Shown piece after piece: positions 19,965-60,175 of a DNA stretch of 64,000 nt. This DNA is from Halorubrum halophilum (GTDB taxonomy: Archaea; Halobacteriota; Halobacteria; Halobacteriales; Haloferacaceae): positions 1 to 64,000 of the forward strand of contig NZ_BBJP01000001.1 in the NCBI RefSeq assembly GCF_000739595.1, read 5' to 3'. Numbering within the stretch: the stretch's first letter is position 1; every line of letters begins with the position of its first letter. Below the pieces are notes generated by a model. It was given only the letters and a program-made list of their open reading frames with translations. It had not been told where the DNA came from and did not search any database. The position numbers and the translations under genes were made by a program.

Positions 19965-20039
19965 TGCTCCGGCTGGGATTCGAACCCAGGTCATCACCGT
20001 GAGAGGGTGATATGATTGGCCGGACTACACCACCAGAGC
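19965..20039 (-). tRNA. tRNA-Glu (anticodon CUC)
   Basis: On the minus strand the acceptor arms GCTCTGG (5') and CCGGAGC plus A (3') pair. The anticodon arm TCACC-CTCTCAC-GGTGA gives anticodon CTC, and the T-arm contains GGTTCGAATCC. The cloverleaf is complete, 75 bases without encoded CCA. Confidence 0.93.
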
Positions 20040-22511: not shown

Positions 22512-22811
22512 CTTATAAATGAACGAGGCGATGGCGTGCGCCTGCGAGCGGGCCGTAGGCCCGCGAGCAGACCGCGCGAGGGAGTCGGCGCGGCGCTTTT
22601 AAGCGCCGCGCCGACGAGGCTGGGGAGGCGCGAGGTGCGGTTGCGGTGCGGGTGGGACTCAAAGGGGCAGCCGTGAGGGCGGCGCAGGCGATGTAAGCAC
22701 TACAGGGAGCGAGCAACGCGAGCGACCGAAGCGCACAGCGAGCGTGCGCCGCCCTCACGGCTGGGGCTTTGGAGGTGTTCTCCGAGCAGTGTTCGATCGC
22801 TTATAAACAAC
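22512..22811 (+). repeat. Dispersed structured element, copy A (full length)
   Basis: A roughly 300-base non-coding element running from the TATA-like CTTATAAAT (22512-22520) to CTTATAAAC (22800-22808). It contains hairpin 1 (22548-22564, 7-bp stem) and hairpin 2 (22584-22615, 15-bp perfect stem). The unpaired block GTGGGACTCAAAGGGG is at 22652-22667. The long stem 3 pairs 22668-22686 with 22745-22763 over 19 perfect pairs, and GGGCTTTGGAGGTGTTC follows. The same order recurs inverted at 59.9 kb and, internally deleted, at 43.4 kb. It carries no open frame with coding character. It could be an ncRNA, a structured mobile element or a nucleoid signal. Confidence 0.8.
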
Positions 22812-22980
22812 CGGCTGGGGCTTCGGAAGTATTCACCACCGAGTCACCGATCACATATCGCTGAGCGGCTGGAGCTTTGACGGTGATTTTTTCTCTCGAC
22901 CCGCAATCTGCTACTTATAAACGATCGACTGGAACTCCACCGCAGTTCGACTACACCACCGATCTTACGTCAGTCGCTTA
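22758..22980 (+). repeat. Four decaying tandem units of 54-60 bp
   Basis: Units start at 22758, 22812, 22866 and 22926 with CGGCTGGGGCTTTGG-like sequence. Several end in CTTATAAAC-type TATA elements. Similarity falls off from the first unit to the last. The array runs up to the 3' end of the CBS-domain gene (stop 22965), and the first unit is the tail of the structured element. Confidence 0.65.
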
Positions 22981-23459: not shown

Positions 23460-23621
23460 ACGGTCGCCGTCGCGGCCGGGACCCGTAGGCGTTTCGACCG
23501 GCGCCGTGTTCGGATTGGAGATGGGTCTGAACGTAGCTCCTGTTAACAACCAGACTCGGATCAATAGTGGGAGTGGAACTGTTCTCTTCCAGATGGGGTG
23601 TGACTCCCGAACCAGAGCCGG

Positions 23622-43390: not shown

Positions 43391-43516
43391 AGTCCCAGCC
43401 GTTTGTTTATAAACCTACCGCCGCGGTGAACACTTCCAAAGCCCCAGCCTCGTCGCCGGCGACCTCGCGCGTGCTGACTCGCGGCCGCCTTCGGCGGCCA
43501 CTCGCAGGCACGCGCC
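43391..43516 (-). repeat. Dispersed structured element, copy B (internally deleted)
   Basis: Read on the minus strand this copy has GGCGCGTGCCTGCGAG, then hairpin 1 (43483-43499, stem GGCCGCC) and hairpin 2 (43452-43463, GTCGCC/GGCGAC). The fused GAGGCTGGGGCTTTGGAAG, GTGTTCACC and TTTATAAAC follow. The GGGACTCAAAGGGG block and stem 3 are missing, cut between the two GGCTGGGG repeats. A second CGGCTGGGACTTCGG unit follows on the outside. Confidence 0.75.
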
Positions 43517-43544
43517 GACCGCACCGACCGCGTCGACGGGTCGT

Positions 43545-59884: not shown

Positions 59885-60175
59885 TTTGTTTATAAGCGAT
59901 CGACTGTTCTACGGTGAACACCTCCAAAGCCCCAGCCGGTGAGGCGGGCGCACGCTCGCTGCGCTCCTCGCTCGCGTTGCTCGCTGCGGTGCTTACGTCA
60001 CCTGCGCCCGCCTCACCGGCTGCCCCTTTGAGTCCCACCCCGCCCCGCACAGCACCGCACCTCACACCTCCCCAGCCTCGTCGGTCGCCGTAGGCGACCG
60101 ACTCCCTCGCGCGGTGCTGCGAGCGGGCCGGTGGCCCGCTCGCAGGCACGCGCCACCGCCATCATTTATAAATAA
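59885..60175 (-). repeat. Dispersed structured element, copy C (full length)
   Basis: Inverted relative to copy A, this element runs from TTTATAAAT (about 60164-60173) to TTTATAAGC (59889-59897). Hairpin 1 is 60119-60143 (11-bp stem) and hairpin 2 is 60080-60102 (10-bp stem). The conserved CCCCTTTGAGTCCCAC (complement of GTGGGACTCAAAGGGG) is at 60023-60038. Stem 3 pairs 59933-59952 with 60003-60022 over 20 perfect pairs. Each stem differs in sequence from copy A yet stays fully paired. It has no coding content. Confidence 0.8.

Follow-up and report, generated by a model that had tools for sequence, protein, structure and literature searches.

A dispersed non-coding repeat family of the Halobacteriales with a covarying, modular predicted fold

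Copies of the repeat in the window

The window (the whole 64,000-nt stretch of Halorubrum halophilum DNA that was analysed) carries two full copies, A and C, and one truncated copy, B, of a dispersed repeat. What is conserved is ~270 nt of a single strand, predicted to fold into a 5′ domain, made of hairpin 1 (which contains a GA/GA internal loop), an interchangeable hairpin 2 and GGCTGGGGAGG, and a 3′ rod in which 37 pairs are supported and the purine loops are conserved. Matches are given to two covariance models, R1 for the rod (built from 63 Halorubrum rods) and R2 for the 5′ domain.

22512..22811, plus strand: copy A, full element, 5′ double-hairpin domain and rod, with TTATAAA at each end
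22528..22636, plus strand: copy A 5′ domain, hairpin 1 with GA/GA internal loop, hairpin 2 and GAGGCTGGGGAGG (R2 match, E 7.8e-14; covariation in hairpin 1)
22584..22615, plus strand: copy A hairpin 2, a 15-bp perfect palindrome and exchangeable module (module swapping at orthologous copies)
22649..22788, plus strand: copy A rod domain (R1 match, 150 bits, E 2.6e-30; covariation)
22801..22965, plus strand: degenerate tandem 3′ units downstream of copy A (TTATAAA ... GGCTGGGGCTT...)
43420..43522, minus strand: copy B, truncated by deletion of the rod; hairpin 1 and a hairpin 2 of 6 bp are followed by GGCTGGGGCTTTGGAAGTGTTC (R2 match at 43447-43522, 36 bits; R1, 29 bits)
59885..60175, minus strand: copy C, full element (R1 and R2 matches)
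59908..60041, minus strand: copy C rod domain (R1 match, 133.5 bits, E 9.9e-27)
60059..60159, minus strand: copy C 5′ double-hairpin domain (R2 match, 92 bits, E 1.2e-14)

A tRNA gene with an Rfam match also lies in the window (19965-20039, minus strand).

The first-pass annotation had proposed that all three copies share one order of blocks. We observed this order in A and C, namely TTATAAAT, hairpin 1, hairpin 2, GGCTGGGG, GTGGGACTCAAAGGGG, stem 3, GGCTTTGGAGGTGTTC and a closing TTATAA, and the stems were also found as described: hairpin 2 of A has 15 perfect base pairs, and stem 3 of A and of C lies within 30- and 28-nt inverted repeats, respectively. The rod of copy A is this stem 3, to which 2-bp steps separated by GA/GA loops are added on the inner side and GGGTG/CACC on the outer side. 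Copy B (43391-43516, minus strand), on the other hand, has only hairpin 1, the 6-bp hairpin 2 and the 3′ block; the 5′ TTATAAAT, GTGGGACTCAAAGGGG and stem 3 are absent and the R1 match is weak, so the structure is not uniform across the three copies. From its sequence, B looks like the product of a deletion between two GGCTGGGG repeats. The 22-nt 3′ block, GGCTGGGGCTTTGGAGGTGTTC, occurs four times at ≤3 mismatches where 0 are expected, which excludes chance as the source of the repeat. The absence of a coding frame holds for practical purposes, although ORFs do overlap most of A (an 81-aa antisense ORF, probably spurious) and most of C (a 106-aa ORF, antisense to the element or sense).

Size and range of the family

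The window's own 3.68-Mb genome contains 140 R1 matches to the rod (the 140-nt 3′ half), and the core GTGGGACTCAAAGGGG is present there at 82 exact and 134 near-exact places. The exact core motif was found in 47 of 52 Halorubrum genomes, at 0 to 105 copies per genome, and was absent from 45 genomes outside this genus. The R1 model, however, matched 100 of 155 Halobacteriales genomes, belonging to 41 of 57 genera, mostly over its full length; outside Halorubrum the best E value was 3e-21 and a genome held up to 91 copies. Among 148 genomes sampled from the phylum, every one of the 18 with an R1 match belonged to the order, and none fell outside the Halobacteriales. Rod relatives in other genera have the form GGGTGGGACTGAAAGGGGC ... 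GACGCAAGCAC ... GCGCACAGCGAG ... GGGGGCTTTC, and in some of these genera the 5′ domain also lies directly 5′ of the rod (loci L374 and L380, and two weaker matches).

Relatives were also present on plasmid records, including those of Halobaculum, Halorussus, Natrinema, Haloarcula and Halobacterium, and the named plasmid records carry almost no annotated feature at these positions. Rfam 15 gave no match for the repeat, as only tRNAs reached the gathering score and the weaker matches were at chance level. A sequence search of the open literature found the core in no paper and returned unrelated matches only; no copy was found in the viral and phage collections. Four bacterial assemblies contain the exact motif (L038, L098, L110 and L126); the matches in L038 and L098 fall inside predicted ORFs, and these two were taken as chance. 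We conclude that the repeat is a previously uncatalogued haloarchaeal family that extends beyond Halorubrum to the whole order. Both the family and its predicted fold are well supported, and we hold them with high confidence.

Covariation and the folded strand

We examined three alignments: Halorubrum rods (A1), the Halorubrum 5′ domain (A2) and 40 rods from other genera (A3). In A1, 97.4% of the cells were paired and 265 were double-changed, compared to 75 after shuffling. The corresponding values for A2 were 99.0% and 111, compared to 32. When the partner was slid by one to three columns in these two alignments, pairing fell to 23-63%. In A3, 94.8% of the cells were paired against 74.4% when shuffled, a pairing figure that leans towards the model because these rods were fitted to R1; double-changed cells numbered 289 against 83, and double changes occurred in 30 of the 37 pairs. 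At fixed offsets, with no structure prediction, the variable positions of the outer 12 bp of stem 3 paired with their partner from the same copy in 88% of cases, compared to 52% for shuffled partners. Thus covariation over many copies, named in advance as the test of the structural claim and run here in an equivalent form, was found in excess, and the claim stands. From these alignments, the predicted rod fold is maintained by matched base changes on both of its sides.

The inner part of the rod is built of 2-bp steps separated by GA/GA loop columns, mostly 81-98% conserved. Four adjacent inner pairs showed 30 haplotypes in 63 copies, which indicates that the inner pairs change independently. 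C-to-T changes on one arm and G-to-A changes on the opposite arm are one and the same mutation; therefore, without selection on a folded strand, GU and AC should be equally frequent. We observed GU:AC ratios of 74:16 (A1), 74:1 (A2) and 54:6 (A3) with the mostly-G-U pairs left out, figures biased towards GU by the column selection of RNAalifold and, for A3, by fitting to the model, and a ratio of 102:34 at fixed offsets. The large excess of GU and the conserved GA/GA loops indicate that one strand folds, as RNA or as single-stranded DNA. In almost every copy the sense strand has the more favourable folding energy; as strand evidence this was set aside as a composition effect, the sense and antisense z-scores of copy A being equal (-5.9 and -6.1).

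Hairpin 2 is replaced wholesale between orthologous copies, one perfect palindrome for another, and shows no wobble asymmetry (17 GU to 17 AC). It is the one part that acts like a DNA palindrome module, and the earlier reading of its changes as selection on RNA does not hold. The signature of selection on structure is borne out by hairpin 1 and by the rod, including the GA/GA internal loops of the latter.

The behaviour of hairpin 2 fits an alternative in which the stems are cruciform or hairpin DNA, serving as a binding site or as a recombination or nucleoid element, with the paired changes produced by template-switch correction. The GC-rich, nearly perfect stems fit it as well. The rod loop is inverted relative to the conserved arms in 4 of 312 cases (L004, L343, L134 and the G014 region), as would result from recombination between the two arms of the stem, which suggests that DNA-level recombination acts on the stems too. 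However, this alternative does not account for the excess of GU over AC in hairpin 1 and the rod, and whole-arm copying would not leave GA/GA loops at fixed places with independent 2-bp steps. As an explanation of the element, we consider it quite unlikely.

Genomic setting, modules and possible mode of spread

At site A, the orthologous gap is occupied in three relatives by a full copy whose hairpins differ; in genome G029 the arrangement is another one, and in G017 the gap has only 14 bp. Many further pairs of occupied and empty orthologous intergenic sites were observed across 84 kb of the own genome and stretches from five relatives, 320-400 kb per relative. In these species, ~90% identical, the presence or absence of a copy could partly be due to loss. 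At five orthologues of site A (L173, L181, L187, L189 and L194), the gap contains, instead of the repeat, an ORF that looks, by eye, like an OsmC-family protein. Two orthologues of site C have a small two-gene cassette in the gap, by eye similar to an antitoxin-toxin (VapBC-like) pair, and one of them (L205, the other being L202) has a truncated repeat copy next to the cassette.

Copies are mainly intergenic. By heuristic gene calls, convergent gaps are favoured (90 of 211 copies, compared to 143 of 619 background gaps) and divergent gaps avoided (32 of 211 compared to 184 of 619), while copies in tandem gaps, which form 292 of the 619 background gaps, show no strand preference (40 same, 49 opposite). 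In 24 loci of other genera, a small number, no such preference for convergent over divergent gaps was visible. TTATAAA stands near the ends of many copies, and no duplication event of this motif was resolved at the diverged sites. The two most complete wrapped copies (L329 and L336, see below) have no target-site duplication. When the flanks of empty and occupied sites were joined to look for target duplication, the intergenic sequence proved too diverged to define a junction. We consider a mobile-like spread of the repeat likely, and the first-pass proposal of a dispersed, mobile-like structured unit with compensatory changes, outside Rfam, is supported.

These observations also bear on the possibility that the copies are genes for, or UTR parts of, a functional structured host RNA, acting in trans or in cis on neighbouring mRNAs. 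Such an RNA would show covariation and conserved loops, as seen here over 41 genera. Optional two-hairpin inserts with TCATCA, TGCCA or GCCA linkers recur at three sites of the core; the one with TCATCA has the same position even in a genome of another family (L379), and these peripheral modules resemble the expansion segments of large RNAs. A host function, however, sits poorly with 0 to 105 copies within one genus, with orthologous sites that are often empty and with insertion that ignores the strand of the neighbouring gene. The TATA-like ends had been proposed as promoters of the folded RNA; where present, they mostly begin 13-17 nt before GGTGGCG. The archaeal TATA-to-start spacing is usually about 25-30 nt, so a start would fall inside the 5′ strand of hairpin 1, and the spacing does not suit a promoter of the fold. 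On this evidence a host RNA is rather unlikely.

In part of Halorubrum, the element lies inside an imperfect inverted-repeat wrapper of 450-660 bp, whose repeats, GATCGATAGCGGGAGTG...CACTCCCGCTATCGATC, are separated by about 440-530 bp. The most complete wrapped copies (641 and 660 bp) have extra outer ends, GGCTCTGTTGAAA...TTTCAACAGAGCC. An IS6-type transposon was rejected as the source of the outer GGCTCTGTTGAAA repeat, the ends of the own IS6-type elements being GTGTTCAGATAAG. Terminal inverted repeats, a feature of MITEs, are restricted to this wrapper; many-rod genomes lack them, and the absence of the wrapper repeats from copy-rich genomes (e.g. G015, G039 and G049) indicates a local package rather than the source of the family. 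Solo palindromes with wrapper repeats 110-130 bp apart and no core (G029:C2, about 2356386-2356514; G000:C81:208972-209101) are either empty wrappers or deletions. A lone wrapper-repeat match (2 mismatches) without a partner is also present in the window at 23559-23575 (minus strand), ~750 bp downstream of copy A.

REP/REPIN elements, associated with RAYT transposases, are intergenic hairpins with a strand-specific fold, occurring singly or as inverted pairs. The haloarchaeal rods are likewise single or inverted-paired, located between genes and with one folding strand, and in other genera (L371, L373, L379, L382, L383 and L385) they often form head-to-head pairs, ~20-25 nt apart, around a short GGCCAGCCGAAAC-like sequence. 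The repeat could accordingly be pictured as single-stranded DNA hairpins moved by a Y1 (RAYT/IS200-type) transposase of the same genomes, and the convergent bias in Halorubrum would fit. But the haloarchaeal fold is much larger, and Y1_Tnp was not found in the copy-rich genomes G081 (91 copies), G154 (71) and G064 (58), nor in G018, while G056 has it 10 times without any R1 match. Since the distribution of Y1_Tnp does not track the copy number, mobilisation by Y1/RAYT was rejected, and we regard this explanation as very improbable. Pneumococcal BOX elements are modular dispersed repeats with a stable predicted RNA structure; they are compared here by description, and differ in host, size and modules.

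Judged by its features only, the repeat appears to work most like the bcr1-type repeats. The bcr1 repeat has a conserved RNA structure. The BCRs of Bacillus cereus, in the account of PMC6542083 cited here, are non-coding, 100-400 bp long, restricted in taxon and present in dozens to 130 copies per genome, with mobile features without a transposase and an AT motif (TTTAT) tied to the repeats; for the bcr1-type repeats that account refers to Okstad 2004 and Kristoffersen 2011. The haloarchaeal repeat is likewise taxon-restricted and non-coding, with dozens to hundreds of copies and a mobile-like distribution. However, it is archaeal and order-wide where bcr1 is found in one species group, has a two-domain fold with a GA/GA rod and interchangeable modules, and its TTATAAA has no demonstrated duplication.

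Closer in host are the PATEs, MITEs and SMRs of Haloquadratum, described in the relevant parts of PMC3119063 as transposase-free, high-copy repeats, several with palindromes; the same features are seen here. PATEs are IS605 derivatives that lack inverted terminal repeats, and SMR-A is about 110 bp and inserted into PATEs or IS605 elements (same parts of PMC3119063). Our repeat, in contrast, has inverted repeats in its wrapper, its copy-rich genomes lack Y1_Tnp, and it measures 270-660 bp and lies between ordinary genes; nor do those parts of PMC3119063 describe a covarying fold. By the definitions published there, the repeat is neither a PATE nor an SMR.

On balance, copies A and C are probably members of a Halobacteriales family of dispersed, non-coding, non-autonomous repeats that spread through recognition of the folded strand. 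The folded strand, an RNA transcript or single-stranded DNA, would be recognised by a protein encoded elsewhere, and this recognition would copy or move the element into gene-free, promoter-poor gaps. Selection would keep the fold because non-folding copies would not be propagated. No autonomous partner gene for the repeat was found; recognition of the folded strand by a partner in trans is our best inference for the mechanism, held with moderate confidence. That the family is an archaeal counterpart of SINEs, with a large modular structured RNA as the moving form, an RNA intermediate and a partner in trans across the haloarchaea, seems doubtful.

A fold kept over 41 haloarchaeal genera at up to ~140 copies per genome represents a large unexplored part of well-studied genomes, and it belongs to a repeat with no Rfam entry, almost no annotation at its relatives and no open paper found. 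If transcribed, the repeat would rank among the most abundant families of structured RNA in archaea. Movement as a folded single strand, if it occurs, would make structure-based mobility testable in the genetically tractable Haloferax, Haloarcula and Halorubrum.
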